A DNA stretch of 64,000 bases from Cylindrospermum stagnale PCC 7417 (lineage in GTDB: Bacteria; Cyanobacteriota; Cyanobacteriia; Cyanobacteriales; Nostocaceae), in assembly GCF_000317535.1 (NCBI RefSeq), contig NC_019757.1, positions 6,588,501 through 6,652,500 of the forward strand, written 5' to 3'. The stretch's first letter is position 1; every line of letters starts with the position of its first letter. This document shows positions 1,639-39,959 of this stretch, piece after piece. A program made the translations under genes and the position numbers. The notes under the pieces were generated by a model that did not search any database, was not told the DNA's origin, and saw only the letters and a program-made list of their open reading frames with translations.

Positions 1639-1763
1639 AGGGGAGCAGGGGAGAGTGACAGAAAAATCAGCTTTTTAAGCATCTCTGTTGGAGGAAGAGG
1701 TTTGAAGAGGTATCAAGATAATATAAGTATTCTTATAGAAAATATTGACAAGGAAGACAGAGT

Positions 1764-3606
1764 ATGTATGTCAAACTGTCTAACTTAGTTCAGAGATTGC
1801 AGAATTTAGTTAAAAAACTATACACCAAGCGATCGCCTAAATTAGGCAAATGGCGATCGCTCTTTCTATTAATACTTTTATTTGTCCTCTCCTTAAGCAT
1901 TCCCCTGGTTGCTCAACAAGTCTGGGCATCAACCCCCATCATTCAAACTCAACAAAATCCCTTACAGCTGGTAGAACAAGGTAAAAAACTTTACGCCGCT
2001 GGACAGTTTCAAGAAGCCGCTTTAGTTTGGCAACAAACGGCTGAAGCTTTTGCTGCTCAAGGGAATAAGCTCAATCAGGCAATGGCTTTGAGTCATCTTT
2101 CCCTCACCCAGCAGCGACTAGGCAAGTGGGATGAAGCAAAATTGGCGATCGCTACTAGCCTCAAACTCCTAGAAACCCAGGAAAAAACACCAGCACAACG
2201 CCGCATCCAGGCGCAAACATTCGACATTCAAGGACAGCTACAACTAGCGATGGGGCGATCGCAAACAGCCCTAAAAACTTGGCAACAGGCATCTGATATA
2301 TATAAAAATATCGGCAATAAACAGGGAATCATCCAGAGTCAGATTAACCAAGCCCAGGCAATGGAAGAATTAGGGCTTTACCCAAGAGCTTGTGAGACAT
2401 TACTAGAAGCTTTAGAACTTAAGCTGCTATCACCAAGCTGAATTATCCACCGAAGCCAACACCAGCACCAAGGCACAACTGAATTTACTCAGTCTCTTCA
2501 TCCAGACTCAACAATGGTCTAATATCCCCACCCTACTGCCTAAAATTCAGTCCCAGCTTAATAAACTGCCAATGAGTCATGGAGCCATCTATGCTCAACT
2601 CAACTTGGCGCAAAATATGATGTGTCTCCAATCAGCACTGAATCCACAACCATCAAAACTGCCATCTCCCCTACTTCAACAGTGTCGTGCAACCCAAAGA
2701 ACAGTAACTAGCGCTGGGGGTAATAGTTTGCGATCGGCACTGATTCCTACTTGGGAAGATCTTGCCAAAATTGTCACCACCGCACGTAACCAAGCTCAAG
2801 TTTTGCAAGACAACCAAGCGCAAGCCTACGCTTTGGGTTGTTTAGGAGCAGTTTATCAACAAATTGGAGACATCCCAAATGCTCAAAGGTTGACCGAACA
2901 GGCTTTGCAGCTAGCTTCATCCTTCGATGCACCACACATTGCCTATCGTTGGCAATGGCAATTAGGACGACTGCGACGAATTCAGGAAAACCAACAAGGA
3001 GCCATCAGCGCTTACACAACCGCCTTTGAAACTGAAATTGCCGAAACAAGAAAACTTAGAACACTACACTACAAAAGTTACCCAAGAGCAATTAGAAAGC
3101 AACGTAAAACAACTAATAGCTCTTCTCAACGATAAAACACGCTTTCCCAATGAAATTCAAGAGTCATCCCAACAAATATACGAATGGTTAATGCGACCAG
3201 TACAAACAAAGCTAGTTGATAGTCAAATCAAAACCTTAGTATTTGTATTGGATGGAGTATTACGAAATATTCCTATGGCAGTCCTCTATGATCGCCCCAG
3301 TCGGGAATATTTAGTACAAAAATATGCCCTAGTTATCACCCCTGGTCTTCAACTGATCAGTCCTCGCCCTTTAGCAGATGTCCGCCTAAATGCTATGATT
3401 GCTGGCATAAGTGAACAGCGGACTTTTCCGGAAGAAAATCAGTTATTTTCTAGACTTAACTTTGTAGCTGATGAATTAGGAAAAATTGAGAAGCAATTAC
3501 CGAACAGTGAAAAATTACTGGATCAGGCTTTTCTCAAAGCTACGCTGCAAGAGCATCTAGCAAATGCCAAATACACTATTGTTCACTTAGCAACTCATGG
3601 AGAGTT
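1764..3606 (+). pseudogene. TPR-CHAT domain protein, degraded and cut by a MITE
   Basis: A membrane or signal segment (about residues 30-52, LFLLILLFVLSLSIPLV) precedes TPR repeats. The reading frame breaks at 2441 and continues in a second frame (about 2442-3029, TPR) and a third (about 3026-3606, CHAT caspase-like domain). The third frame ends at VHLATHGEF, which contains the catalytic-type His. A MITE then interrupts the CHAT domain, and the catalytic Cys part is not recognisable downstream; joining the flanks across the element gives about 20 further residues to a stop at 3819. TPR-CHAT genes commonly neighbour haemagglutinin genes in Nostocales, so this and the previous gene are probably relics of one secretion/surveillance locus. 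Confidence 0.75.
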
Positions 3607-3762
3607 TAAGAGGATGTCTGAGAAGTTGTTAGTGATAAATCAAACACTGGTAGATCCCCCTAAATCCCCCTTAAAAAGGGGGACTTTGACTCTTGTTCCC
3701 CCCTTTTTAAGGGGGGATAGGGGGGATCTCGATCAATTTTGATACTTTTCAGACATCCTCTT
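3607..3762. mobile_element. MITE, copy 1 (TIR AGAGGATGTCTGA)
   Basis: The left end TAAGAGGATGTCTGAGAAG matches the reverse complement of the right end CTTTTCAGACATCCTCTTA with one mismatch. TA lies outside both ends, as expected of IS630/Tc1-type TA target duplication. The interior folds through complementary C-rich and G-rich tracts (3655-3726) and ends with GATCTCGATCAATTTTGAT. A second copy with the same ends and the same inner motif is at 59165-59315. No transposase is encoded. It splits the CHAT reading frame. Confidence 0.75.
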
Positions 3763-4327
3763 AGAAATGCTCGCTTTTCTTCAAGAAAAGCTGAATACTC
3801 CCGAAAAGGAGCGAATTGACAAACCTATAAAGTGTAATAATTGCTTAAATTCAGGGCAAGATTTTTGATTAATCTCAGCACAATGCTTGATACCTACCAA
3901 AAGGTTATCGTTTGTAGAAAAATTAAAAGTTAAAAATTTAATATATTATATTGATTACTATTACAGGAAAAGCCTGCCGACTGGAATATTTTTAGAAAAT
4001 AAATGATCTGACTTAGGATTTACCCGCTAAGATTACTGTTTGAGACATTCGTTTTGGAAATGGGTAGTGCTCCCCCCAGAAATCCCCATTATTCTGTAAA
4101 ACGGATAAATTTGGAAGCAAGCTAATCCTTGTAGATAGAATGTTTCCCAGTTATCAGACTCATTCTAATACAAATTTTATCTGAGGCTGCACAGAATGAT
4201 GAAATCAATTTGATTATCCATCTTTATCTGCGTTTATCTGCGTTTATCTGCGGTTAATTCTTTTTCATATCTTATTCTATGCAACTTCATATCAATTTAG
4301 TATAACTGTACTAATCATCGTCATCAG
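3763..4327. other. Gene-free stretch
   Basis: No convincing gene is seen. It contains the leftover CHAT-gene flank (to about 3819), A/T-rich sequence, and a short tandem repeat built on TTTATCTGCG at about 4220-4252. No terminator or tRNA was recognised. Confidence 0.4.
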
Positions 4328-4560
4328 ATGCCGTTAAAAAACCGCGTCTATATCTGTCCCAAATCTGGTCATATAGAAGACAGAGACTTAAACGCGGCGA
4401 AAAATATACAACGATGGTTTGATGGAACTTTATTCCTATTCGTTCAGAAACGGTGAGTTCCACCGTGTCAACCTGTGAAGTAGACAAACCTCTCAAGAGT
4501 CATCTTGAGACTACAATGAAACAGGAAGTAAACACCGAAGAAAATGTTTTACAGAACGGT
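4328..4560 (+). pseudogene. TnpB C-terminal remnant (IS200/IS605 type)
   Basis: The frame from 4328 gives VYICPKSGHIEDRDLNAAKN, the C-terminal zinc-ribbon/RuvC-III end of TnpB (GHIEDRDLNAAKN), and then stops at 4453. The usual tail (VSSTVSTCEVDKP, then MKQEVNTEE) continues in the next frame up to about 4560. The second CxxC half is degenerate (CPKSG). The RuvC-I and RuvC-II parts are absent, so only the last fifth of the gene survives, with a frameshift. Confidence 0.65.
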
Positions 4561-4666
4561 AGAAGAAAATTTAGTTTGTATTACATACAATTGCAAACTG
4601 CTGTATTATTCAGCCGTTCACCAACAGAGATACAACATTACCAATTTTCCCTATCTCCGTCTTTGC

Positions 4667-5068
4667 CTACGCAGGAATCAACACTGTATCAATGACGTGA
4701 ATAACACCGTTATCAGCAGTAATATCAGGCTGGGTAACATTGGCGTCATTTACCTTCACGCCTTGAGAAGCGTCAATGCTCACATCTGAACCTTCAATGG
4801 TGTGAGCAGAATTCAGCTTAACAACGTCAGATGACAGCACCCTACCGGCAACAACATGATAAGTCAGGATTCTCTGAAGTCTGGGAATATCTTGAAGCAA
4901 TGCATCTACTGTACCTTGTGGTAGTTTAGAAAAGGCCTCATCAGTAGGCGCAAAAACGGTGAATGGACCTTCACCTTTAAGAGTATCTTCCAAATTAGCC
5001 GCTTGGATTGCAGCAATTAGAGTGTTGAAAGAGCCAGCATTAGCAGCGGTATCAATTATGTCAGCCAT
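4667..5068 (-). CDS. Fasciclin (FAS1) domain protein
   Basis: A 133-residue single FAS1 domain. The H1 motif [11 protein letters not shown] is at residues 36-46, the central YH pair at 70-71, and the H2-like motif [13 protein letters not shown] ends the protein. FAS1 proteins act in adhesion or at the cell surface, but this one starts directly with [14 protein letters not shown] and has no signal peptide, like many short cyanobacterial homologues. It stands alone and is divergent from the transporter operon with 240 bp between them. No clear Shine-Dalgarno is seen. The family is certain; its role is not. Confidence 0.9.
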
Positions 5069-5308
5069 GTTTTTAACCTAGTGGGTAGATGGGATTTCCC
5101 AATGAGCACCGAAACAAGCTTATCCACTAAGTTGCTGCCAAAAAAGCACCCATAGATAGAGGAATCGGCTGAGAAAAAGCTTCATGATTTCCTCCCCTAG
5201 ACAGCAGCAGAGACAATTCAATTATTTAACTATCTTGAAATCTACTAGGAAGCTTTACCTTTGCATGGTCAAATTAAAATAATTCCCTAGATAGATGATT
5301 ATTGATCC
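5069..5308. promoter_or_regulatory. Divergent intergenic region (fasciclin / amino-acid ABC operon)
   Basis: This 240-bp spacer between two divergently transcribed genes must hold both promoters. I searched by eye for an NtcA site (GTA-N8-TAC) and saw none. No clear hairpin or riboswitch is visible. Confidence 0.35.
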
Positions 5309-6553
5309 ATGAAAAGACCTGCGGCGCTGACAACTACATTCTTAGCTACTTGTACTATGCTGCTTACAGCTTGCGGTGGCGCTAACAACGGCACAAATTC
5401 TGTAAATAATAGCCCAAACATCACTACAACTAAAACCCCAGGAACAACGGGTGTATCTGCTGCTATCCCCATCGGTATCGCTTTCGCCCAGACTAGCAAT
5501 GTAGCATTACTCGGTCAAGAGCAAGTTGCCGGGGCCAAAATAGCCGAGAAGTATTTTAATGATCAAGGTGGAATCAACGGCACTCCCATTAAATTGGTAT
5601 TTCAAGACACCAGCGGTGATGAGGCAGGAGCGATTAATGCTTTTCAAACCTTAATCAATAAAGATAAAGTTATTGGTATTGTCGGCCCAACTTTATCACA
5701 GCAAGCTTTTAGCGCTGACCCCGTTGCTGAACGTGCCAAAGTACCAGTTCTTGGCGCATCTAATACTGCTAATAAAATTCCCGAAATTGGTGATTATGTG
5801 GCTCGTGTATCTGCGCCAGTTTCCATCGTCGCTCCTAATTCAGTCAAAGCCGCACTCAAGCAAAATCCCCAGATTAAAAAAGTTGTAGTTCTCTACGCCC
5901 AAAATGATGCCTTTAGTAAGTCAGAAACAGAGATTTTCCAGAAAACAGTTAAGGATCAAGGGCTGGAATTGCTAACAGTGCAAAAGTTCCAAACCAGCGA
6001 CACAGACTTTCAAAGCCAAGCCACTAATACAATTAACCTCAAACCAGATTTAATCATTATTTCTGGTTTAGCTGCGGATGGCGGTAACTTGGTGCGACAA
6101 CTGCGGGAACTAGGTTATAAAGGCTTAATTGTTGGCGGTAATGGCATGAACACCTCAAATATATTCCCAGTATGTAAAGCGCTTTGCGATGGTGTATTGA
6201 TTGCTCAAGCTTACAGTCCAGAGCATCCTGGTGAGATTAACAAAGTATTTCGCAAAGCTTATGTTGAGCAATACAAAAAAGAACCACCCCAATTTAGTGC
6301 CCAAGCTTTTGCAGCAGTACAGGTGTATGTAGATGCTCTCCAGACTTTAGATAAAAAGAGCAAAGTAAATAAATTACCATTGCCGCAATTACGCACAGAA
6401 TTGAATAAGCAGATCCTCGCCGGAAAATATAATACACCCTTGGGTGAAATTGCCTTTACACCCATAGGTGAAGTAATTCAAAAAGATTTCTATGTTGCCC
6501 AAATTAAGATTGATAAAGACGGAAATAAAGGAAAATTCTCATTCGTAAAATAG
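5309..6553 (+). CDS. ABC transporter substrate-binding lipoprotein, branched-chain/neutral amino acid type
   Basis: A 414-residue periplasmic-binding protein of the Leu/Ile/Val (type I) family. The lipoprotein signal ends in the lipobox LTAC with Cys22, so it should be anchored on the periplasmic face of the membrane. Family features include IGIAFAQTSNVALLGQEQ, FNDQGGINGTPIKLVFQD and VIGIVGPTLSQQA. It is the first gene of an operon with two LivH/LivM permeases and two LivG/LivF ATPases. By analogy with the Anabaena Nat systems it should bind neutral or hydrophobic amino acids, but the ligand cannot be read from sequence. Confidence 0.92.
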   Translation: MKRPAALTTTFLATCTMLLTACGGANNGTNSVNNSPNITTTKTPGTTGVSAAIPIGIAFAQTSNVALLGQEQVAGAKIAEKYFNDQGGINGTPIKLVFQDTSGDEAGAINAFQTLINKDKVIGIVGPTLSQQAFSADPVAERAKVPVLGASNTANKIPEIGDYVARVSAPVSIVAPNSVKAALKQNPQIKKVVVLYAQNDAFSKSETEIFQKTVKDQGLELLTVQKFQTSDTDFQSQATNTINLKPDLIIISGLAADGGNLVRQLRELGYKGLIVGGNGMNTSNIFPVCKALCDGVLIAQAYSPEHPGEINKVFRKAYVEQYKKEPPQFSAQAFAAVQVYVDALQTLDKKSKVNKLPLPQLRTELNKQILAGKYNTPLGEIAFTPIGEVIQKDFYVAQIKIDKDGNKGKFSFVK

Positions 6554-6560
6554 GTTGTAC

Positions 6561-7511
6561 ATGGATATAAATTTGTTTGTGCAACAATTGTTAAATGGGT
6601 TATCTATTGGTAGCGTCTATGCAATTTTTGCCTTGGGATATACCCTGGTTTATTCCATTTTGGGTATCATTAATTTAGCTCATGGGGCAATTTTTACTCT
6701 GGGTGCATATTTTACATATACACTCATGGGTGGTACTTTTGGATTTAACGGCTTGTTGGCTAATGCAGCTTTGCCAATACAATTACCATTTGCCGTAGCC
6801 TTGATTTTAGGAAGTAGCTTGGCGGGATTAGTAGGGGTGGGGATGGAACGCATCGCCTTTCAACCTCTGCGTCGTCAAGGATCTGACCCCTTGCTGACAG
6901 TTGTTTCTAGCTTGGGTGTGGCGGTGGTAATTGTCAACTTAATCCAGTATTTAGTAGGCGCAGAAAGTTACACTTTTCCCGCCAATACTTACGGAAATTT
7001 ACCCCCAGCGATTAACTTTGGCAGCATCGATCATCCAATTCCTATTCGTAGCGTCCAGGTAGTAATTTTTGCTGTTTCGGTGGTGATTGTCTCTATCCTC
7101 ACCTATTTTATTAATCGTACTAAATATGGTAAGGCGATGCAAGCGATCGCAGAAGATCCAGTGACTGCGAGTTTGTTAGGAATTAATACAGATCGTTTTA
7201 TTATCTTGACATTCTTTATCAGCAGTTTCTTAGCAGGAATGGCAGGAACTTTGGTTGCTTCTAGTGTCAGCATTGCTGGGCCATATTTCGGTATTGCTTT
7301 CGGATTACGGGGTTTAGCAGTAATTGTTTTAGGTGGTTTAGGTAGTATTCCCGGTGCAGTATTGGGAGGTTTACTTATTGGATTGGTAGAGGCGTTTGTT
7401 CCTGCTGATTACTCTGGCTATAAAGATGCTGTAGCCTTTGGCATACTGTTTATTATGCTGTTAGTTAGACCCCAAGGTTTGCTAGGACGTCGGTTTATAC
7501 AGAAGGTGTAG
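6561..7511 (+). CDS. livH: Branched-chain amino acid ABC transporter permease (LivH family)
   Basis: An integral membrane protein of about 316 residues with eight or so hydrophobic segments. It shows LivH-type signatures: GLSIGSVYAIFALGYTLVY near the N-terminus, INLAHGAIFTLGAY, and the EAA-like cytoplasmic loop AMQAIAEDPVTASLLGIN that contacts the ATPase. I take ATG at 6561, 8 bp after the upstream stop, rather than the TTG at 6555. It should form the membrane pore with the LivM protein encoded next. Confidence 0.92.
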   Translation: MDINLFVQQLLNGLSIGSVYAIFALGYTLVYSILGIINLAHGAIFTLGAYFTYTLMGGTFGFNGLLANAALPIQLPFAVALILGSSLAGLVGVGMERIAFQPLRRQGSDPLLTVVSSLGVAVVIVNLIQYLVGAESYTFPANTYGNLPPAINFGSIDHPIPIRSVQVVIFAVSVVIVSILTYFINRTKYGKAMQAIAEDPVTASLLGINTDRFIILTFFISSFLAGMAGTLVASSVSIAGPYFGIAFGLRGLAVIVLGGLGSIPGAVLGGLLIGLVEAFVPADYSGYKDAVAFGILFIMLLVRPQGLLGRRFIQKV

Positions 7512-16494: not shown

Positions 16495-17070
16495 ATGAAT
16501 GCCCAACTAGATTCTGCTATTGTGCGAATTTCTAAAGCCAATGGTCAAGTCGTTGGTGCAGGCTTTCTAGTTAGCGAAAAATACCTAATCACCTGCGCCC
16601 ATGTCGTTAACGCCGCACTCTCCCAACCCCTAGAAGCAACTGAACAGCCTACTGGCGAAATCAGTCTAGATTTCCCCTTAATTCAGCCTCCTGAGAAACT
16701 GAAAGCGCGGGTAATTCACTGGTATCCAGTCAAAGACAGCACATCCACCTCAGAGATATCAGATATTGCCGTCTTGGAGTTGTCAACTAAGCCAAGCGTT
16801 CAAGCTAAAAAGGTGCGATTAGTTACAGCAGACAATCTATGGGGGCATCCCTTCCAAGTTTTTGGTTTCCCTGTGAGGCGCGATGCTGGTGTGTGGACAT
16901 CTGGTGAACTGCGTCGCCCTATCAGTGGTGGTCGGGTACAGATGCAGGTAGTGCAACAAACAGCCTATCGCATTGAGTCTGGTTTCAGTGGTTCACCTGT
17001 CTGGGATGAAAACCTGGATGGCATTGTGGGTATGACTGTGACAGCTGAGAAGTCACGAGAAAGGCTTTAG
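16495..17070 (+). CDS. Trypsin-like serine protease domain, truncated from a larger effector
   Basis: 191 residues with a complete catalytic triad: His36 in TCAHVV, Asp90 in SDIAVLEL, and Ser165 in SGFSGSPVWD. The N-terminus MNAQLDSAIVRISKANGQVV is typical of cyanobacterial proteases fused to STAND ATPases. The frame ends at TAG 17070, exactly where sequence from the second half of an nSTAND ATPase begins in another frame (ALVLTLRADFLEYALANRDF). The original protein was therefore probably protease-nSTAND-FGE, and a deletion has removed the ATPase core and uncoupled the protease. The remaining protease could still fold. Confidence 0.75.
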   Translation: MNAQLDSAIVRISKANGQVVGAGFLVSEKYLITCAHVVNAALSQPLEATEQPTGEISLDFPLIQPPEKLKARVIHWYPVKDSTSTSEISDIAVLELSTKPSVQAKKVRLVTADNLWGHPFQVFGFPVRRDAGVWTSGELRRPISGGRVQMQVVQQTAYRIESGFSGSPVWDENLDGIVGMTVTAEKSRERL

Positions 17071-17078
17071 TCCTGACT

Positions 17079-18758
17079 TTGCGGGCTGACTTTTTAGAAT
17101 ATGCCCTGGCTAATAGGGATTTTTTTGGTGCGTTGGCGGGAGAATTTCCAGATCCCAAGGGAGAAAAGGGAGCAATTTGTCTACTCGGACCAATGAACCG
17201 TCAAGAACTGCAAGATGTGATTGAGAAACCAGCTGCTAATTTAGTTCAATTACAGGAGGGATTGTGCGATCGCATTTTGCAAGCTGTAGAGAAGCAACCA
17301 GGAAATCTGCCCTTACTAGAATTTGCTCTCACTCAGTTGTGGAAACAGCAAAGTCAGGGACAACTCACTCATCAGGCTTATGATCACATTGGCGGTGTCG
17401 AAAAAGCTCTAGCTAGGTATGCCCAAGAACAGTATCAACAGCTTTCTCCAACCGACCAAGAAAGAACAAAGCGGGTTTTTATCCAGTTAGTGCGTCCAGG
17501 GGAAGGAACCGAGGACACGCGACGCTTGGCTACCCGTGCAGAGGTGGGAGAAAACAACTGGGATTTGGTGACAAAGTTAGCGAATTTCCGGTTGGTAGTT
17601 ACAGGACGCGATGAAACAGCTAAAGAAGAAACAGTGGAAGTGATCCACGAAGCACTAATTCGCGAGTGGCAACAACTACGTGATTGGATGGAAGATCAGC
17701 GCCGTTTCCGCACCTGGCAAGAACGCTTACGGATGACGATGCGGCAATGGGATGCTGCTGGAAAAGACGAGAAGGCTTTGTTGCAAGGTGTCCTACTGGT
17801 AGAAGCGGAAGATTGGCAGCAGCAACGCTTAGAGGAACTGAGTTTAGACGAGCGAGCTTTTATACAGTTGAGTTTGGCACTGCGCGATCGCCAGAAGCAG
17901 GAACAAGAACAGATTCAACAGCGTGAACTAGCACTAATGCGACAGTCACGAACACGGTTGCGATCGCCAGTTGTTGTACTTGGTGCGATCGCATTCGGCA
18001 CTTCAACTGTACTTGTCTATCCTCGCATCCTGGGGTGGTGGACAGCTTCCCAAAGTCCTATGGTACGTATGCCAGCAGGTGATGCCGTTATTGGCACAAA
18101 TCCGATCAAAGCGAATCCTCAAGAAATGCCTGAACGTACAGTTTATGTTCGAGAGTTTCAACTTGAACAATACGAAGTTTCTAATCAGCAATATCAATTA
18201 TGTGTAAAGGCTGGGGTTTGCACTGAACCAATAACGCAATTGCCTCTCTATTCTAATAATCAAAATTTACAACATCCAGTTATAGGAATTACAGCAATTC
18301 AAGCAGCAAAATACTGTCACTGGTTAGGAAGACGTCTACCTACTGAGGTAGAATGGGAACGTTCTGCAAGAGGACTCAAACTACCAGAAAAACCAAAAGG
18401 AAGGCTTTGGCCTTGGGGCGATTTAGATCCATTTCCCCAACTCGCAAATCTTCTTTTCAGTCAAGCTGAAAACGATCTTCAACCTGTAAAAAATTATGAT
18501 GACGGAGCCAGCCCTGAAAAGGTTTACAACTTAGTAGGAAATGCCTGGGAGTAGACCGCATCTTATTTTGATGAATATCCAAATGTTGAAAAGCAGCAAG
18601 TTTGGGATGGTGATTCTAAAAATTTACTTGCTGATAAAACACTGGCTTTAAGAGGAGGTGGTTATAACGCTCAAATTTCACGCATTACAAAACGAATAGA
18701 ATATTCAGGTTCCGAATCTTCTCCTAACTATCCATTTGGTATGCGTTGTGCTAAATAA
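17079..18758 (+). pseudogene. nSTAND1 (C-terminal half) - TM - FGE-sulfatase domain, degraded
   Basis: The reading frame carries the C-terminal helical part of nSTAND1 (LRADFLEYALANRDFFGALAGE, LPLLEFALTQLWKQQ, VEVIHEALIREWQQLRDW). The Walker A and B regions are missing. Next come a TM helix near residues 293-315 and a formylglycine-generating-enzyme-like (FGE-sulfatase) domain (VRMPAGDAVIGTN, GRRLPTEVEWERSARG). TAG at 18552 replaces the Trp expected in NAWEW. The same frame then continues through LALRGGGYNAQ to CAK and TAA at 18756. It carries an N-terminal deletion and a nonsense change, so it is very likely inactive. Confidence 0.78.
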
Positions 18759-29197: not shown

Positions 29198-32100
29198 TCA
29201 CTTATTAGGACACAAAGTGCGATCGCTTTTCGTCACCTTCGGATTATGCAACAGATAGTCATTTATTAAACCACAACCATTATCCAGTAAGCTTTCCAGC
29301 TTAATATCTGCCAGATTTCGCCAAATCACCGTACCATTACCACTACCCGCAGCCAGAGTTTTACCATCAGGGCTAAAACTGACACTGGTTAACTCATCCT
29401 TATCACCCTTCAAAGCAATCAGCAGCGTCCCTTCCCGGTTCCACAGCCTCACCTTATCATCACTGCTGACAGCCAGAGTTTTACCATCGGGACTAAAACT
29501 AACACTGATGAAACCATCACCATCCCCTGAGAGAGTTTTGAGAAAAGTCCCTTCCCGGCTCCAAAGTTTCACTGTACTATCAATACTGGCTGAGGCTATA
29601 GTTTTTCCATCAGGTGACCAGGCTACACCATTTACCCGCCGGCTATGACCAGTTAAGTTGTGCAGCAGTTTACCATCACGTCCCCAAACCTTCACCGTAG
29701 CGTCATCACTGGCTGATGCTAACAACTGACTATCAGGGCTAAAGCTGACCCAATTCACGGCGTTGGTATGTCCCTGCAAAGTATTCAGCAGTTGACCATC
29801 GCGACTCCAGAGTTTCACTGTTTTATCTTTGCTAGCTGAAGCGATAGTTTCTCCATCAGCTGACCAAGCTACACCTAAAACCGCATCTTTGTGACCCTTC
29901 AAAGTATTCAGCAGTTGACCATCGCGACTCCAGAGTTTCACTGTTTTATCTTTGCTAGCTGAAGCGATAGTTTCTCCATCAGCTGACCAAGCTACACCCC
30001 AGACTTGATCCTCATCACCTGGTAAAGTATTCAGCAGTTGACCATCGCGACTCCAGAGTTTCACTGTTTTATCTCGACTCGCCGCCGCCAACGTTTTACC
30101 ATCAGGACTAAAACTGATGCTAGTAATCCAATCATTATTAGCTTTGGGGTTTCGCAGCAACACATCATCCCATCGCCAAAGTCTAATAGTTTTATCCCGA
30201 CCGGCAGAAATCAAAGTCTTGCTATCTGGACTAAAGCTGACACTATTTACCCAATTATTATGTCCCTTCAAGGTTCCTAACAGTGCACCAGACCGACTCC
30301 AGAGTTTAATTGTCTCGTCGGTACTAGCTGAAGAGATTGTTTGACCATTAGGACTAAAACTCACACTAGTCACACCAGCACTATGTCCCGACAGAGTTCT
30401 CAAAAACTTACCGTCTCGACTCCAGAGTTTCACCGTCTTATCTAAACTGGCGGTAGCAATTGTTTGACCATCCGGTGACCAAGCTACACTTTTAACGGCA
30501 TCTTCATGTCCCTGTAAAACCTTCAGCAATTTACCTTCTCGACTCCATAGCTTGGTTATATTGTCAGCACTCACCGCCGCAATTATTTGACCATCAGGCG
30601 ACCAAGCTACACCCAAAACCGCATTACCAAACCCTGTTAAAGTGTTGAGCAGTTGACCGTCACGACTCCACAATTTCACCGTTTTATCTAAAGAAGCAGA
30701 AGCAATAATTTGACTATCGGGACTAAAACTGACACCATTTACCACAGCCTGATGCCCTGATAAAGTAGCCAGCAGCTTACCCTCCCGACTCCACAGTTTT
30801 ATCGTCTTATCCTGACTAGCGGAAGCAATAATTTGACTATCAGGGCTGAATGTAGCGCTATTCACCACATCATCATGCCCCGCCAAGGTGTGTAACAAGC
30901 TACCATCAGGACGCCAAAGGTCGATAGTTGCGTCTGCACTGGCTGAGGCAATCAAAGAACCATCAGGGCTGAATGTAGCGCTATTGACCCCAGACAAATG
31001 TCCCTCCAAGCGATTGCGCTCTTTTACCCCGTAAACTGCCTGGTATAGGGACGTTAGCACCAGTTGCCGCGTATAGGAATCTACCCAGATATTCTGTTGT
31101 AATTTTCTGCCAGCCTTCAAACCTTCTTTGACAGCATCGATGCCTTTTTGTGAGGCAAAAAGTGCTTCACTGGATGCACTGAGGGTTTTAATTTCGCTAT
31201 CTACTGCGGTGATTATAGAAATAGTTAACCCGAATATGGCAAAAATAGAAGCACCAAGGGCAATTTTCAGGGAACGATTTAAGCGAACTTCACTCAGCCG
31301 TTGTTTTTCTTGACTTTCGACTAATTGAGTAGTTAACTCTTTTTCTTTAAGTTCGGCTCGCAGGTGTTCAATTTCTAACTGAGTCAGTTCTTCTCGCTTG
31401 CGTAGCTCCCGCAGTTCTGTAACTAAATCTAATCCCTGTTGGGGTTGAGTATCTACCAATTTAGCTTGCTGCTTTTTTTGCCGCAGTTCGCTTTTAAGTC
31501 GCTCAATTTCCGTTTGACTTTGGTCTACTTTGTCACGTAATTGATTCAGTTGTGCCTGTAAGCTAGATTCTTGTTGTTGGAGGTAGCGAATCAAGTCTAC
31601 TAAATAATCATGAATTAGTTGATAGCGTTCGGGAACATCGGGGAATAACACTACTAACCCAGAGCGCACTAAAATATCTAAAACTAACTCTAATTTGGCA
31701 GCATCTTCTAATTCTGCTAGTTCTGCTGCTAACTCAGCACGGGTTTTAAATGGACGTTTGTTACTTTCATCTGTTAATAAATACAAGACGAGTAAAGCTG
31801 CGCGTTCATTTTCGGTTCCGCAGTCTTTAATCAGTTCTTTGATGTAGCGCTCGATCAGTTTATTTGGTCGATAGGGCTGATATTGCTCTAATTTGGTAAT
31901 GCGCTCATCTTGCAGTTGTGCTCCCACTACCTGCAACTCAATCGGGCGGACTTCTCCTAGTTCTGCTGATAAATCTTCGACTAAGGCATCAATCAAAGTA
32001 GGTTCTAAATTAAATTGCGATCGCTCGGTTAACTTTTGGATAATAGCTCTGGCATATTCTGGGGAAAAATTATTTAACTGATAGCGGATATTTTTGTCAA

Positions 32101-34282
32101 GAATATTATTATTAATTGCTTCCAGTGCCGAGAGATGTTTAAATTCTAATAATCGATGTAAATAATCTTCTCGCAAAGATAAGATAACTTTGACAAAGGA
32201 TATATTCAGACAGTCGCTAATAAATCTATCAAATTCTTGCTTTTGATTGCGGTCAGTATAACCAAAGAAATATTCTTCAAATTGGTCAAAAATTAAAACC
32301 GTAATTAAATGGTTATCAGCATTTTCGCGTAATTGCTGCCAAATCTCGTCAATGGTGGTGGGTGTAGCCAGTTCAATGGCTGGACTTCCCTTAATCAGAG
32401 AGACTGCCGCTGTTAAAGATTTCCCTAATTCCCGCACCCAATCGGTATAAACTTGTAGTACCACAGGTACGGCAATTTGATCACCAATAGCGCGATTTTG
32501 CAATGCTGGGACTAAGCCTGCGCTGACGGTTGAACTCTTACCCACTCCTGATTGACCGTGAATCACCGTTAACTTTTGATCAGCGCGGCTAATTCTGCCA
32601 ATTAAGTTATTAATATCACCTTCCCGACCAGAGGCAGCAATTTCTAAAGCGACGCTGCGATTGCCGGTAGATGACATCAAAGCTGGGTTGGTGGCTTGTC
32701 TTTGGGGTTGGAGACGACCGGCACCGATGAAAGCGCGAAAGCCGTACTGCTGCTCAACAGAACGGCGTTTTTGGCGAATAATGTATGCTTCCAGATAGCG
32801 ACCTGCTTCAAAATAAAGCGATCGCATATTCCGCAATAAGCGAATATAACGATGGGCATCATATTGATGCTCGCTATTTTCTAAAGCTGCTGACAGTTCT
32901 AAAGTTGCTTTTTCTAGATATTCATCAGCTATGTCTTGCTCACCTATATGACGCTGTGCCTTCGCTAAAATCAAATAATAAATTTGTCCCAGCAGCAAGG
33001 GAAACAAGCTGTGATGTGGTTCATGATGTTTTTGTGCTTCCCCTAATTTCAGTAGCGCTACATGAGCTAAAATACTCGCTTGCACCCACCTGAATTGCTG
33101 CACAGCTACTTGAGCCAGAAAACCGTAGTCGCAGGCCAGTTGAATTTGGCTACCATAATTTTGATGCAACTCCAGAGACTCTTGAGCAATAAGTTGCAAT
33201 TCTGACCATTCTTGGAGATGTTGCAAAACTTCAGCGAGTTTAGCAATAAACTCAGCAACTAAATCTACACGTTTAGCTACATGAAAAACATTCAAACATT
33301 GCTGAAAATAATATTTAGCGTCATACCAATGACGGCGATTTTCTGTTTGATTTTGTTCTGCCAAACGGGAATAACATAAACCAATGTAAAAAAATAAAAC
33401 TCCCTGGCGTAGCAGATGAAGCGACGGAGAGACAGGAATAGGAGATTTCGATGAATTTTCCCATTCTACAATACCTCTTCTTCTCTCTCTTCGCTGCCTC
33501 TGTCCTTCTTTTATCGTTTCTTCTTGCCAAAATTGCCAGCTTTGGAGAAAGTGGGTTAAAGCTAACTTTATCCGGTCACTGACATAATCATCTAGACCAA
33601 AAACAAATTGCAGACTAGCATTTAATTCTGGCTCTAAGCTAATACCGCGATGTTCTAACTCTTTAATCGCAAACTGGAGTTCATAACTGCGCTGCCAGAC
33701 TTGCTCTAAAGTGAAATTATCAACATTTATTTGATTATTTTGATCAGTGTTAGCGTGTAACACTGTGGCGAACAAAGAGTCAGTTTCTTGTTGCAGAAAT
33801 AGCAACAAATCTGGAGAGGTCATTTCAAACCGAATCGGTGTTGCTGCCCAACTAGCGAAATCTGGTGCCAAGCGCACTAGCTTTTGCAATACTTCTTCAT
33901 TTACCCACAAAACCATTGGGAAGGTGTGGCGTTTGCGAAATTCGTCGCGAATGTGATTGATCGAAGTTAGTAAGTCATCAAGTCCATCTACTGACTCTAA
34001 ACCCAAGATCATTAATGCTAAGGGTTGATCAACCGTTAGCTGGAAATGGATAGTTGTATAAAGACTTCTGGCATTGCGGGGCAAAACTACCTTTTGAATT
34101 TGGTAAGCTCCCATCGTCAGTTCTGTAAGTCTTTGCAGGAGTAGCTCCTGCAAGACTTGATAGTTACAGCACACCAAAACCACCGAGAATTGACCACTAG
34201 AGAGGGAAATTGCCCTCCCCAAACTCCGCAGAGCACGCTCGTTAGCCGCTGTTATATCTACTGGTGGGTGTCGTTCAACCAT
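29198..34282 (-). CDS. nSTAND ATPase with coiled coil, TM helix and 14 WD40 repeats
   Basis: 1694 residues. Residues 1-200 form an ATPase-like domain without a Walker A (VLVCCNYQVLQELLLQRL, PMVLWVNEEVLQKLVRLAPD), then a helical/TPR-like region. The nSTAND1 NTPase has Walker A GQSGVGKSS (about 576-584) and Walker B VLIFDQFEEYFF (about 664), followed by a winged-helix/helical part. A coiled coil lies at about 915-1000, a TM helix (IALGASIFAIFGLTISIIT) near 1006, and 14 WD40 blades of 41 residues from about 1090 to 1665, enough for two seven-bladed propellers. The layout is that of NLR-like sensors: propeller senses, NTPase switches. No nuclease or protease effector is visible. It overlaps the upstream ATPase gene by 25 bp. 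Confidence 0.9.
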   Translation of the reverse strand: MVERHPPVDITAANERALRSLGRAISLSSGQFSVVLVCCNYQVLQELLLQRLTELTMGAYQIQKVVLPRNARSLYTTIHFQLTVDQPLALMILGLESVDGLDDLLTSINHIRDEFRKRHTFPMVLWVNEEVLQKLVRLAPDFASWAATPIRFEMTSPDLLLFLQQETDSLFATVLHANTDQNNQINVDNFTLEQVWQRSYELQFAIKELEHRGISLEPELNASLQFVFGLDDYVSDRIKLALTHFLQSWQFWQEETIKEGQRQRRERRRGIVEWENSSKSPIPVSPSLHLLRQGVLFFYIGLCYSRLAEQNQTENRRHWYDAKYYFQQCLNVFHVAKRVDLVAEFIAKLAEVLQHLQEWSELQLIAQESLELHQNYGSQIQLACDYGFLAQVAVQQFRWVQASILAHVALLKLGEAQKHHEPHHSLFPLLLGQIYYLILAKAQRHIGEQDIADEYLEKATLELSAALENSEHQYDAHRYIRLLRNMRSLYFEAGRYLEAYIIRQKRRSVEQQYGFRAFIGAGRLQPQRQATNPALMSSTGNRSVALEIAASGREGDINNLIGRISRADQKLTVIHGQSGVGKSSTVSAGLVPALQNRAIGDQIAVPVVLQVYTDWVRELGKSLTAAVSLIKGSPAIELATPTTIDEIWQQLRENADNHLITVLIFDQFEEYFFGYTDRNQKQEFDRFISDCLNISFVKVILSLREDYLHRLLEFKHLSALEAINNNILDKNIRYQLNNFSPEYARAIIQKLTERSQFNLEPTLIDALVEDLSAELGEVRPIELQVVGAQLQDERITKLEQYQPYRPNKLIERYIKELIKDCGTENERAALLVLYLLTDESNKRPFKTRAELAAELAELEDAAKLELVLDILVRSGLVVLFPDVPERYQLIHDYLVDLIRYLQQQESSLQAQLNQLRDKVDQSQTEIERLKSELRQKKQQAKLVDTQPQQGLDLVTELRELRKREELTQLEIEHLRAELKEKELTTQLVESQEKQRLSEVRLNRSLKIALGASIFAIFGLTISIITAVDSEIKTLSASSEALFASQKGIDAVKEGLKAGRKLQQNIWVDSYTRQLVLTSLYQAVYGVKERNRLEGHLSGVNSATFSPDGSLIASASADATIDLWRPDGSLLHTLAGHDDVVNSATFSPDSQIIASASQDKTIKLWSREGKLLATLSGHQAVVNGVSFSPDSQIIASASLDKTVKLWSRDGQLLNTLTGFGNAVLGVAWSPDGQIIAAVSADNITKLWSREGKLLKVLQGHEDAVKSVAWSPDGQTIATASLDKTVKLWSRDGKFLRTLSGHSAGVTSVSFSPNGQTISSASTDETIKLWSRSGALLGTLKGHNNWVNSVSFSPDSKTLISAGRDKTIRLWRWDDVLLRNPKANNDWITSISFSPDGKTLAAASRDKTVKLWSRDGQLLNTLPGDEDQVWGVAWSADGETIASASKDKTVKLWSRDGQLLNTLKGHKDAVLGVAWSADGETIASASKDKTVKLWSRDGQLLNTLQGHTNAVNWVSFSPDSQLLASASDDATVKVWGRDGKLLHNLTGHSRRVNGVAWSPDGKTIASASIDSTVKLWSREGTFLKTLSGDGDGFISVSFSPDGKTLAVSSDDKVRLWNREGTLLIALKGDKDELTSVSFSPDGKTLAAGSGNGTVIWRNLADIKLESLLDNGCGLINDYLLHNPKVTKSDRTLCPNK
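29778..29998. repeat. Identical 98-bp units in adjacent WD40 blades
   Basis: Bases 29778-29875 and 29901-29998 are identical, 123 bp (41 codons) apart; the first 51 bases recur again from 30024. This is a recent in-frame duplication of blades within the STAND gene. Confidence 0.85.
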
Positions 34283-35589
34283 GATTTAAATTTTTGCGTT
34301 TCGGCTAACACTGGGTTGACGGCAAACCAAGCACCCTGGCGATCGCGATATTCAAAGACAAATAAACTCCGCAACAGAGTGTGGTACTCAATTTCACCGC
34401 CAACTCGTTGCTTTTGCACCACCTGAAAAATTAAATCCCACTCATGGGGGTCGATGGCTTTGGCTCGGTAATCTCGCTGTCTTTGAATCACCAATTCGAC
34501 ACAGTCACGGTCAAAGGGTGGATCTTGGTCACGGAGACAGTCAAACAGCAACCCTAGCAAGTCGCGCACATGACCACCACTGATCAGACACAACCGATCT
34601 AAAGTTTCCAGACTATCAAATACCTCCGTAATCAAGCCTAACCGATCGCCTACCAAAATGTCGGGGAAGGCTCTAGCCAAAACCATTTGCCGCATCAGTT
34701 CTAGCCCTTCGGGAAAAATTTCCCCAGAACGTAGACGCACGGGTATCATTGGCAATACTTTTGGTGCTACCCCACCCCCCAAGCGGTGTTGGAGTTCGGC
34801 GCTATCGTTAGAGAAAGTGATAGCTAGGGGAATTGTGTAAACTACGTGGCAATGCAGTTTGCGTAATTGTTCACCCCGCTCGATGAATAAATATTCAGGA
34901 AGCGATCGCCCCGATGGTAAAGGACGAATTGCTACTCTGTCTAGGTTATCGACAATTACCACCAGTCCTTTTTTGCCTTTAGCTTTGAGTACAGCGTTAG
35001 CAGGTTCTAGCAGTTCTTTGTTAATTGAGAACAGAATATTTTCTGTCCGTGGTTCCAGATAGTCTCTTAAGCGTCGCCGTAATTGGGGGCTTTCTTTCGT
35101 TTTAGCGGTAATTTTGGCAATTCCAACAGACAATTCAGCTTCAACCCCAAGTTCAATCGGGGTTTGCAGAAAATCCACCACCTCAGCAAACAACTTGGTA
35201 AAGTAGCTAGGTTTGAGGCGAATTTGCATCGCTTCTAGGCTTTCACTCACCTGACCTGCGATCGCCAACAGAATATCAGTCACATCCACATCCGCCATTT
35301 CCAGCACACGGGTGGACTCAAAATAAACTACCTGAAATTTCTGTTCCTCCAACTCAGCTTTCAGGCGCAACAACTCCGTGGATTTACCACAACCAAGGTG
35401 TCCTGTAAATAGCTGACAGGTTGGTGCATCCGGCGAGATGCGGGTGATAGTGCGCTGCAAAGCCTCAATAATTTTGCCCCCCCGCACCGAGGCAAAATCG
35501 ATATAGTACCGGCGATCGGCAGCATTTCCTATCATTAGTGGTCTGCTGGGATTGCAAGCCTGATAAAATCTTTCTAAATCTAGGAGCAT
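34258..35589 (-). CDS. P-loop ATPase (AAA/STAND-like), partner of the WD40-STAND protein
   Basis: 443 residues. After an N-terminal segment (MLLDLERFYQACNPSRPLMI) comes Walker A GHLGCGKST at residues 63-71. Walker B is GLVVIVDNLDRV (Asp214 and following), and a helical part with GGHVRDLLGLLFDCLRDQD follows, as in KAP/AAA-type ATPases. The C-terminal third ends LFVFEYRDRQGAWFAVNPVL, winged-helix-like. No TM segment is seen. Its last 25 bp overlap the start of the nSTAND-WD40 gene, so the two are made from one mRNA with coupled translation. The function is unknown; a regulatory or loader role for the partner is an inference. Confidence 0.82.
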   Translation of the reverse strand: MLLDLERFYQACNPSRPLMIGNAADRRYYIDFASVRGGKIIEALQRTITRISPDAPTCQLFTGHLGCGKSTELLRLKAELEEQKFQVVYFESTRVLEMADVDVTDILLAIAGQVSESLEAMQIRLKPSYFTKLFAEVVDFLQTPIELGVEAELSVGIAKITAKTKESPQLRRRLRDYLEPRTENILFSINKELLEPANAVLKAKGKKGLVVIVDNLDRVAIRPLPSGRSLPEYLFIERGEQLRKLHCHVVYTIPLAITFSNDSAELQHRLGGGVAPKVLPMIPVRLRSGEIFPEGLELMRQMVLARAFPDILVGDRLGLITEVFDSLETLDRLCLISGGHVRDLLGLLFDCLRDQDPPFDRDCVELVIQRQRDYRAKAIDPHEWDLIFQVVQKQRVGGEIEYHTLLRSLFVFEYRDRQGAWFAVNPVLAETQKFKSWLNDTHQ

Positions 35590-36735: not shown

Positions 36736-37530
36736 ATGACGCCTTCACCAGACATAGATACTATTAATTCTCCCGATATTGACCTAGAAGGATACGGCAA
36801 CTCAGAAGTTGATCCGCTTGATGACTTACCCGATGAGGTGGAAATGTCGCTTTTCGACCACCTTGAAGAATTGCGCTACCGGATTTTTTATTCTCTAATT
36901 GCCGTAGCAGTCAGCATTATCGGCTGTTTTCTCGCCGTCAAGCCCCTAGTGCAATTACTGCAAGTCCCGGCTCAAGGCGTTAAATTTCTCCAACTAGCTC
37001 CCGGAGAATATTTCTTTGTCTCCTTCAAAGTCGCAGGTTATAGCGGCTTGGTGCTTGCTAGTCCGTTTATTCTTTACCAAATTATCCAGTTTGTGCTGCC
37101 AGGACTGACTATCCGCGAACGCCGTTTGTTAGCGCCTGTAGTTTTGGGGTCGAGTGTGCTATTTCTGGGGGGGTTAGTATTTGCTTACTTGCTACTTATC
37201 CCCGCCGCTTTAAAATTCTTTATCAGCTACGGCGCGGATGTAGTGGAGCAATTGTGGTCGATTGATAAATATTTTGAATTTGTGCTGTTGCTGTTGTTCA
37301 GCACTGGGTTAGCTTTTCAAATTCCGATTATCCAATTGTTGCTCGGTAATTTAGGAATTGTCTCTTCACAAAAAATGGTGGCTGGTTGGCGTTTCGTAAT
37401 TATGGGCGCAGTGATTTTGGGTGCTGTGCTGACACCGTCTACTGATCCTCTAACCCAAAGTCTCTTAGCAGGAGCAGTTTTAGGTCTTTACTTTGGTGGT
37501 GTTGGTTTAGTTAAGCTCATAGGTAAATGA
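36736..37530 (+). CDS. tatC: Sec-independent protein translocase TatC
   Basis: 264 residues, six TM helices. A hydrophilic N-terminal extension (about 36 residues) precedes the family start [38 protein letters not shown]-type and [18 protein letters not shown] are TatC hallmarks. It is the receptor for twin-arginine signals and moves folded proteins across the thylakoid or plasma membrane. Its position beside petC makes sense because the Rieske protein carries a twin-arginine signal. Confidence 0.96.
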
Positions 37531-38307: not shown

Positions 38308-38847
38308 ATGGCTCAATTTTCTGAATCCGTGGACGTGCCCGATATGGGGCGTCGTCAATTCATGAATCTGCTCACTTTTGGGACTGTCACAGGGGTGGCA
38401 CTAGGTGCATTGTATCCCGTTGTTAATTACTTTATTCCACCTGCTAGCGGTGGTGCTGGTGGCGGGGTGACGGCAAAAGACGAATTGGGCAACGAAGTTA
38501 GCGTCAGTAAATTTCTAGAAAGCCGTAACGTAGGCGATCGCACTTTAGTTCAAGGACTCAAAGGCGACCCCACCTATATTGTGGTCGAAAGCAAAGAAGC
38601 GATCGCTGATTACGGCATTAACGCCATCTGCACCCACCTAGGTTGTGTTGTTCCCTGGAATGTAGCCGAAAACAAGTTTAAATGCCCTTGTCACGGTTCC
38701 CAATACGATGCAACTGGTAAGGTTGTGCGCGGACCAGCACCGCTGTCTTTGGCTTTATCCCATGCCAACGTAAACGAAGACAAAATCGTCTTGACCCCTT
38801 GGACAGAAACCGACTTCCGCACCGACGAAGCACCTTGGTGGTCTTAA
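38308..38847 (+). CDS. petC: Cytochrome b6f Rieske iron-sulfur protein
   Basis: 179 residues. Twin-arginine motif GRRQFMNLL (Arg15, Arg16) with TM anchor residues about 22-45, a glycine-rich hinge (SGGAGGG), then the 2Fe-2S domain with CTHLGC (108-113) and CPCHGS (126-131). It passes electrons from plastoquinol to cytochrome f. It is followed by petA, the usual cyanobacterial petCA operon. Confidence 0.98.
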
Positions 38848-38896
38848 GCAGTGCTTCCTTGTTGAGTTATTAGTCCCAAGTCTCAGATAAAATCCT

Positions 38897-38951
38897 GACC
38901 AATGACTAATGACCAATGACTAATGACTAATAACCAATGACTAATGACTAA
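38897..38951. repeat. Heptamer repeats between petC and petA
   Basis: Units AATGACT and AATGACC alternate about seven times (STRR) and end 7 bp before the petA ATG. They sit inside the petCA transcript and very near the petA ribosome site, so they could affect petA translation. Confidence 0.7.
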
Positions 38952-38957
38952 ATTGAG

Positions 38958-39959
38958 ATGAGAAATGCTTTCTTAACGGCGAGGATTACTCGCAGTGCTA
39001 GAGCAATGGTAAAAACATTGCTAATAGCGATCGCTACCGTGACGTTTTTCTTCACCAGCGATCTCGCCCTTCCCCAATCTGCCGCAGCCTATCCATTTTG
39101 GGCACAAGCAGCCTATCCCGAAACCCCCCGCGAAGCAACTGGGCGAATTGTTTGCGCCAACTGTCACCTAGCAGCCAAACCCACAGAAGTGGAAATTCCC
39201 CAATCGGTGCTACCTGACACCGTATTTAAAGCTGTGGTGAAAATTCCCTACGACACCAGCGCGCAGCAAGTGGGAGCCGATGGTTCTAAAGTTGGCTTAA
39301 ACGTCGGCGCTGTGTTGATGTTACCCGAAGGTTTCAAAATTGCTCCTGAAGAACGCATTCCTGAGGAGATGAAAGAAGAAATCGAGGGTCTATTCTATCA
39401 ACCCTACAGTGAAGAGAAAGAAAACATCGTCATCATTGGCCCCCTACCAGGCGAACAATACCAGGAAATCGTCTTCCCTGTTCTTTCTCCCAACCCCGCA
39501 ACTGACAAAAATATCAATTTTGGTAAATATTCAGTACACGCAGGCGGTAACCGGGGACGTGGACAAGTTTACCCCACCGGTGAAAAGAGCAACAACAACA
39601 TTTACAACGCTTCCGCCACTGGCACAATTAGCAAAATTGCCAAAGAAGAAGATGAAGACGGTAACGTCAAATTTGTAGTTAGCACCAAAACCGCAACTGG
39701 TGATATTGTCACTGATACAGTTCCCGCAGGCCCAGACCTGATTGTTTCTGAAGGCCAAGCAGTTACATCTGGTGATGCTTTGACCAACAACCCCAACGTC
39801 GGTGGTTTCGGTCAAGATGATGCAGAAATCGTCCTCCAAGACGCGAACAGAGTCAAATGGTTGGTTGCATTCATCTCACTCGTGATGTTAGCGCAAGTCA
39901 TGTTAGTGCTGAAGAAGAAACAAATCGAAAAAGTCCAAGCAGCCGAAATGAATTTCTAA
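38958..39959 (+). CDS. petA: Apocytochrome f
   Basis: 333 residues. A Sec signal ends before Tyr45 (mature [19 protein letters not shown]), whose alpha-amino group is the axial haem ligand. The haem-binding CANCH is at 66-70, and the C-terminal TM anchor is [18 protein letters not shown]. It accepts electrons from the Rieske centre and gives them to plastocyanin or cytochrome c6. ATG 38958 follows a weak GAG site in ATTGAG. Confidence 0.98.

Follow-up and report, generated by a model that had tools for sequence, protein, structure and literature searches.

Two adjacent genes on the minus strand of the Cylindrospermum stagnale PCC 7417 chromosome raise the question whether a small ATPase and a large STAND protein with a repeat sensor form one machine, and whether this machine serves phage defense or the cell itself. 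They lie in a 64,000 nt stretch of DNA (contig NC_019757.1, positions 6,588,501 to 6,652,500; in the following called the window) of a 7.6 Mb genome, and their closest named homologs belong to Nostocales cyanobacteria. From this analysis, we consider it probable that the two genes encode a single ATP-driven membrane switch, in which a dead AAA+ domain of the large protein docks the active small ATPase, and that a resident host role is likelier than phage defense. The first-pass annotation, made from the letters alone, had described two minus-strand reading frames of 443 and 1694 amino acids sharing 25 bp, an arrangement confirmed by the coordinates of the open reading frames (ORFs):

34258..35589, minus strand: small gene, 443 amino acids, ATPase of predicted ORC/Cdc6-TnsC-STAND fold (ORF list, Pfam, structure model)
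29198..34282, minus strand: large gene, 1694 amino acids, with pseudo-AAA, TPR-like, nSTAND1, coil, transmembrane (TM) and WD40 parts (ORF list, Pfam)
34258..34282, minus strand: overlap of the small and large genes, 25 bp (ORF coordinates)

Pairing and co-inheritance of the two genes

At E ≤ 0.001, the small gene was found in 124 and the N-terminal region of the large gene in 122 of 149 genomes; our adjacency counts rest on the best 150 matches for each. A partner match lay within 6 kb of 105 of these 150 small-gene matches, with identical strand and order in all 105, and the best 42 were all paired. Re-reading the remaining 45 revealed a diverged partner in 36 and none in nine, giving 141 of 150 small-gene matches with an N-terminal-domain partner downstream on the same strand. 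Four of the nine are solo genes adjoining ftsQ (L159, L164, L165, L172), whose genomes carry a large gene at another locus (L215, L216, L224, L217). The others comprise three fusions (L158, L160, L169), one gene at a contig edge (L185) and one that has no partner in the 1.5 kb available (L187).

Loci L077–L156 and L157–L213 are partly redundant, and removing nine repeats reduced the 140 small proteins to the 131 on which counts called distinct are based. Among the 80 loci L077–L156, 74 have a partner, which in L126 is 3.7 kb distant; the six partnerless loci are two at contig edges, two fusions (L123, L130) and two with room for a partner (L120, L154). Looking from the side of the large gene, we found the small gene to be present in 12 and absent in eight of 20 regions representing 22 of 43 seemingly unpaired matches. 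The first-pass annotation had proposed a functional pair and named rare adjacency as the observation that would speak against it. We looked for it and found adjacency to be common.

Co-occurrence and tree comparison also support a functional pair. A strong N-terminal match was present in 105 of 106 genomes with a strong small-gene match versus 5 of 43 without, at thresholds set after seeing the tables (1e-100 for the small gene, 1e-25 for the N-terminal domain; Fisher p = 8.7e-29 from a hand-filled 2×2 table, uncorrected for kinship). Tree distances of the partners correlated with r = 0.85 over 115 distinct pairs, compared with at most 0.15 in 1000 shuffles (kinship again uncorrected), and with r = 0.84 over 121 pairs when repeats were kept. 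Swapping partners between copies of one genome lowered r in 10 of 10 cases, with repeats still included. The comparison of tree distances left out the two short-partner pairs of the host genome, described below.

Small and large genes overlap in all 42 paired loci of the clade containing the window copy, with ORFs taken from the most upstream start, and their translation may be coupled. In one relative (G004), about 0.46 kb separates the two matches and there is no overlap. The pairs linked to ftsQ, which form a second syntenic group, overlap in none of 34 distinct cases and show gaps of 24–950 bp.

Domain structure of the small and large proteins

The Walker A motif GHLGCGKST and the Walker B motif VVIVDN that had been assigned to the small protein are both present:

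35377..35403, minus strand: Walker A GHLGCGKST, residues 63–71 (sequence; pattern conserved in homologs)
34936..34968, minus strand: Walker B region GLVVIVDNLDR, residues 208–218 (sequence; conserved in homologs)

The Walker A pattern occurs in all 131 distinct small-protein homologs, and D214, L216, D217 and R218 are invariant in all 115 distinct paired ones. The predicted structure finds its best matches among the AAA+ ATPases ORC/Cdc6 and TnsC, and its Foldseek list includes Apaf-1 chains. The small protein also passes the Pfam cut-off for KAP_NTPase (25.3 bits versus 20); KAP NTPases have TM helices inserted within their P-loop domain. From model and motifs, we predict an active AAA+/STAND ATPase of the ORC/Cdc6-TnsC-STAND fold with Walker A and B.

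The large protein contains, in order from its N-terminus:

33737..34255, minus strand: N-terminal AAA+/STAND-like domain lacking Walker A, residues 10–182
34157..34180, minus strand: VLVCCNYQ, strand 1 and the conserved CNY replacing the P-loop (homolog alignment)
32648..33709, minus strand: helical TPR-like stretch, residues ~192–545 (sub-threshold TPR matches)
31529..32629, minus strand: nSTAND1 NTPase, residues 552–918 (Pfam PF20703, 5.8e-32 as fragment)
32531..32557, minus strand: nSTAND1 Walker A GQSGVGKSS (sequence)
32273..32302, minus strand: nSTAND1 Walker B (sequence)
31274..31600, minus strand: probable coiled coil, approximate bounds (read by eye, no predictor)
31202..31264, minus strand: predicted TM helix, residues 1007–1027 (Kyte-Doolittle)
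29303..31012, minus strand: 14 WD40 blades (Pfam and blade-anchor count)

AlphaFold2 gave an alpha/beta model of the N-terminal domain (predicted local distance difference test score 88.9), whose best structural matches are again AAA+ ATPases (ORC/Cdc6, TnsC). Walker A is found in none of 118 N-terminal domains, and CNY stands at the P-loop site, with C39 and N40 in 115 of 115 and Y41 in 114 of 115 distinct domains. This agrees with the ATPase-like domain lacking Walker A that had been read from the sequence, and the domain is predicted to be a Walker-A-less version of the ORC/Cdc6-TnsC-STAND fold. By hhalign, no direct sequence kinship to the small protein was found, and neither of the two matched a solved structure by sequence below E 0.05. 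Pfam, NCBIfam and PADLOC did not recognize it. It defines an uncatalogued pseudo-ATPase domain with the signatures CNY, N..R and R.APDF..W, of which the host genome holds three full and three remote copies.

The first-pass annotation had seen no classical effector domain and had taken either this N-terminal domain or the partner ATPase to be the effector. Family scans likewise found no known effector domain in the small or large protein (for the whole large protein, among the best 25 of 63 families), where absence from such lists, made via alignments, does not exclude a family. An effector fold in residues 1–200 of the large protein was rejected, the model being an AAA+-like domain, and both the small protein and residues 1–260 of the large one resemble switch ATPases.

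Ahead of nSTAND1 lies the TPR-like stretch, overlooked previously; its TPR matches are below threshold in the window copy, and TPR_12 is above the cut-off in the paralog L015. The nSTAND1 domain (1.1e-30 in the whole protein), the TM helix and the 14 WD40 blades reported before were confirmed by Pfam, hydrophobicity and anchor count. Residues 1007–1027 form the hydrophobicity maximum of the large protein (Kyte-Doolittle 2.2), and a second, weaker stretch lies within nSTAND1 (residues 861–884; 1.5–1.7). A stretch above 1.6 is present in the searched region of 59 of 67 homologs, and lysine and arginine are more frequent on its N-terminal side in 51 of 67, equal in 15 and less frequent in one. 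Because of this bias, the positive-inside rule predicts the WD40 part on the membrane side opposite the ATPases, probably outside. The 14 Pfam stretches and 14 counted blade anchors would leave room for two seven-bladed propellers; the blades of the window copy share a mean identity of 54% with one another. Around 33410–33520 (residues ~255–290), the window copy contains an insert-like stretch, and in several relatives (G037, G078, G021, G069, G025, G045) matches split or contigs end at residue ~255–285, as if a dispersed repeat were present.

The host genome has five genes of the small-ATPase family. Three of them (window, L015, L017) are followed by a full partner with N-terminal, TPR, nSTAND1 and WD40 parts, and L014 and L016 by a short partner limited to the N-terminal region and TPR repeats, the two genes overlapping by 4 and 23 bp, respectively. 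The N-termini of the short partners match that of the window copy weakly in BLAST (18–23% identity, E 9e-6 to 3e-4) and lack CNY. In two genomes from another order of the same class (L207, L208), a stand-alone N-terminal domain of 160–163 amino acids serves as partner. Because such short partners and stand-alone domains occur, the ATPase and the N-terminal domain look like the core, to which nSTAND1, TM helix and WD40 were added. L191 (215 amino acids, remainder in the next ORF) is possibly a broken gene and was not counted as a stand-alone domain. Complete partners measure 1660–1738 amino acids in the window clade (36 loci), 160–1835 in ftsQ-linked pairs (34) and 215–2044 in others (37).

Some of these loci show further peculiarities. 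The L017 gene (7801–12990, minus strand, at 0.68 Mb of the host genome) encodes tandem WD40 blades that are nearly identical to one another, and its nSTAND1 part contains repeated peptide units, inserted in frame, that the window copy lacks. Upstream of the short pair L014 lies a second protein with N-terminal region and TPRs (4681–7113, plus strand; 810 amino acids), the TPRs being highly repetitive. Downstream of the stand-alone domain of L208 follows an ORF of 2087 amino acids (787–7050, minus strand), the beginning of which looks by eye like a Ser/Thr kinase.

These parts suggest how the switch might work. The pseudo-AAA+ N-terminus would dock the small ATPase; the two would probably form a mixed ring or dimer, in which the N-terminus may offer an arginine-bearing face through R137, which we take to sit at the AAA+ arginine-finger position. 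TPR-like helices would join this domain to nSTAND1 as a second, active-looking switch, and coiled coil and TM helix would place the double WD40 propeller across the membrane. Binding of a signal to WD40 could then lead nSTAND1 to oligomerize and gather the pseudo-ATPases, by which the small ATPase would be loaded or fired. The membrane-tethered sensor of the first-pass annotation is upheld as a prediction from the TM helix; because an active ATPase is paired with a pseudo-ATPase, we infer, as had been suggested, that one NTPase acts on the other.

Chromosomal surroundings and selection

Genes for protein export and the cytochrome b6f complex lie next to the pair:

36736..37530, plus strand: tatC, head-to-head with the small gene, syntenic (Pfam TatC, 6.4e-64)
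38308..39959, plus strand: petC and petA, syntenic, beyond tatC (Pfam)

Among the loci of the window clade within L077–L156, tatC adjoins the pair in 23 and petC in 18 of 36 testable loci, that is, loci with more than 4 kb of upstream sequence or with tatC seen. A sister copy adjoins ftsQ-ftsZ(-psbO). Besides the host's own copy, 39 distinct small genes, 34 of them paired, lie next to ftsQ in several orders, the one of L207 and L208 among them, and psbO is located on the far side of the ftsQ-linked pair in 18 loci (repeats kept). In Anabaena, this pair may carry the tags all3855 and all3856, an assignment that is a guess; no paper naming either was found in the open-access literature searched. 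Anabaena all3854 is given as psbO in two papers, in agreement with psbO beside the ftsQ-linked pair.

We compared the window sequence pairwise with four relatives for the ratio of nonsynonymous to synonymous substitution rates (Ka/Ks). The ratio was 0.03–0.06 for the small gene in four comparisons and 0.05–0.07 for tatC in three, tatC not being found in the fourth relative. It amounted to 0.05–0.08 for nSTAND1 and 0.10–0.19 for WD40, indicating purifying selection in every part; diversifying selection in WD40 was not seen in these pairwise ratios, which include no site test. A first-look search of 386 cyanobacterial genomes, sampled evenly over the phylum, found no member of the family in 291 (11 of the 95 positives are marginal, with E above 1e-6), so the family is dispensable for cyanobacteria in general.

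In bacteria, STAND proteins are usually treated as variable defense genes, and here a pair is kept beside core genes of photosynthesis and division. With selection on the ATPase as strong as on tatC, it provides a testable case of a conflict-type switch with a resident cellular role.

Mobile relatives, rival explanations and known systems

Eight plasmid records contain the small ATPase, and in seven the match spans at least 80% of the protein. One copy, on a conjugative plasmid, has NACHT, HicAB and integrase genes nearby, and both partners checked for plasmid copies contain the N-terminal domain together with nSTAND1. Fusion of the small ATPase to gene three of a MoxR-vWA operon occurs in two dissimilar settings, L123 (= L158) and L204. 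L123 groups with the window clade on a long branch (Shimodaira-Hasegawa-like approximate likelihood ratio test 100) in a quick tree of 74 of the 140 small proteins (under 90% identity), and the L204 ATPase shares 94% identity with L200, a normally paired copy from another clade. For L204, the assignment of MoxR-like AAA and vWA_CoxE comes from Pfam scores, for L158 from reading the sequence by eye; no Pfam match named iSTAND was obtained for L204 at E ≤ 0.1. Fusion to TPRs is seen in L130 (= L169) and in L160, nearly a copy of it, which is also fused to another STAND ATPase. Outside cyanobacteria, an Acidisarcina plasmid carries a remote small-ATPase relative (L241, 7202–9912; 26.7% identity); the gene after it encodes TPRs and gave no match to the N-terminal-domain profile.

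Several explanations compete with a resident switch. A doubtful one, at best a minority expectation, is an anti-phage or abortive-infection system of the Avs or ternary-conflict type, with WD40 sensing an invader and the ATPases killing the cell or blocking the phage. Passages of PMC8195603 and PMC10907252 present STAND NTPases (nSTAND1 or other) with sensors as the usual build of such putative systems, and the plasmid relatives, the at least two MoxR-vWA fusions and a weak PADLOC match to PDC-S20 (1.4e-6) point the same way. The window copy itself argues otherwise: it is syntenic with tatC-petC-petA (the sister copy with ftsQ-ftsZ), its Ka/Ks is low in small gene and WD40 alike, no effector domain was found, and WD40 is predicted to be extracytoplasmic. 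The phage collection gave no match in 50,697 records, none of 17 pattern matches in viral contigs was confirmed, and nine of ten chosen window proteins within ~13 kb were unmatched by PADLOC at E ≤ 0.001, the tenth, a trypsin-like protein ~12 kb away, having only remote matches (LmuA, Avs1b and others). The first-pass annotation had linked the STAND architecture to antiviral or self/non-self recognition; because of synteny and selection, with PADLOC matches nearby also sparse, a defense role of the window copy is not supported. Conflict ancestry of the wider family is most strongly supported by the MoxR-vWA fusions and plasmid copies, and these relatives may well keep a conflict role.

Somewhat less probable still is a regulator of the neighbors, monitoring the adjacent cytochrome b6f/Tat or division machinery. 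The recurrence of tatC, ftsQ and psbO beside the pairs fits such a role. However, the pair genes point away from tatC and ftsQ, 13 of 36 clade loci have no tatC within reach, copies elsewhere lack such neighbors, the cyanobacteria without the family divide and photosynthesize, and the neighborhood may reflect chromosomal stability alone. We regard it as unlikely that the small ATPase acts on DNA like the ORC/Cdc6 or TnsC loaders while the large protein anchors it to the membrane and regulates it: the structural match lists that suggest it also hold non-DNA switches (CED-4, NRC4, Apaf-1), and a fold by itself does not reveal function. A further reading, in which the genes travel together as an addiction-like or hitchhiking unit and build no joint machine, could account for the plasmid copies and for solo copies of each gene, and is very improbable in view of matching trees, the swap test, strict gene order, strong purifying selection and stand-alone N-terminal domains that still adjoin the ATPase. 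Most likely, the two syntenic chromosomal copies of the switch serve a conserved host role, such as envelope/growth-state or cell-fate signaling in filamentous cyanobacteria, rather than strain-specific phage defense, and plasmid and MoxR-vWA-linked relatives would keep its conflict-system use. More speculatively, the pair might be a vertically inherited, undescribed apoptosome-like checkpoint of filamentous cyanobacteria, in which an external double propeller and a dead AAA+ domain assemble a separate ATPase; derived from a conflict-system ancestor and fixed at ftsQ-ftsZ-psbO and tatC-petC-petA, it would couple division or cell fate to the state of the envelope or of photosynthesis.

We found no publication on the pair in the open-access literature searched. 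The closest published idea appears to be the nSTAND2 two-gene counter-invader system (Kaur et al. 2021, PMC8195603), the likeness being in principle and not in sequence family, effector or mobility. As outlined there, active and eroded STAND genes are adjacent, the eroded partner carries a variable module, most commonly GT4 or HEPN, a mixed ring is proposed and the system is called mobile. The window pair likewise consists of two adjacent STAND genes by predicted fold, one with eroded NTP motifs. In contrast, its inactive partner carries TPR-nSTAND1-TM-WD40, GT4 and HEPN were not found in the parts scanned, and the window copy is syntenic and not mobile, plasmid relatives notwithstanding. We rejected nSTAND2 membership by sequence, as PF20702, a model present in the library (it hit L160), was not among the families at E ≤ 1 (seven for the small protein, three for the large N-terminus) and was not listed for the nSTAND1 part either.

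The iSTAND/MoxR-vWA ternary systems, concentrated in cyanobacteria among others, combine an inactive STAND module with an active ATPase according to passages of PMC7159879. The pair shares the inactive-STAND logic, and small-ATPase relatives are fused into such operons (L204; L123/L158); unlike these systems, it has no adjacent MoxR or vWA gene, and its active partner is not MoxR. The eight window proteins scanned in the neighborhood were tatC, petC, petA, SLT, acyltransferase or without family, MoxR and vWA being absent. Antiviral Avs proteins join a STAND NTPase to a repeat sensor. The large protein has such a core (nSTAND1); it differs in its N-terminus, where no effector such as a nuclease was found (pseudo-AAA+ by the model), in its TM helix, probably external sensor and second ATPase, and in its synteny. 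ORC/Cdc6 and TnsC give the best structural matches, in contrast to the lack of sequence matches to solved structures reported above, and ORC also mixes active and inactive subunits, as noted in PMC8195603. APAF-1, described in PMC7159879 as a STAND switch with a tandem WD40 sensor, resembles the large protein in this build and the small protein in structure; the pair differs by membrane anchor, extra pseudo-ATPase and separate second ATPase, and by the absence of CARD. Kinship to Hat was considered and set aside. Hat is a WD-repeat protein of Synechocystis that is said in PMC4057619 to control high-affinity inorganic carbon transport.

Elsewhere in the window (16495–18554, plus strand), an ORF for a trypsin-like protease is followed at once by an ORF with just the second half of nSTAND1 and an FGE-sulfatase-like domain, which together look like a shortened or broken trypsin-nSTAND1-FGE conflict gene.

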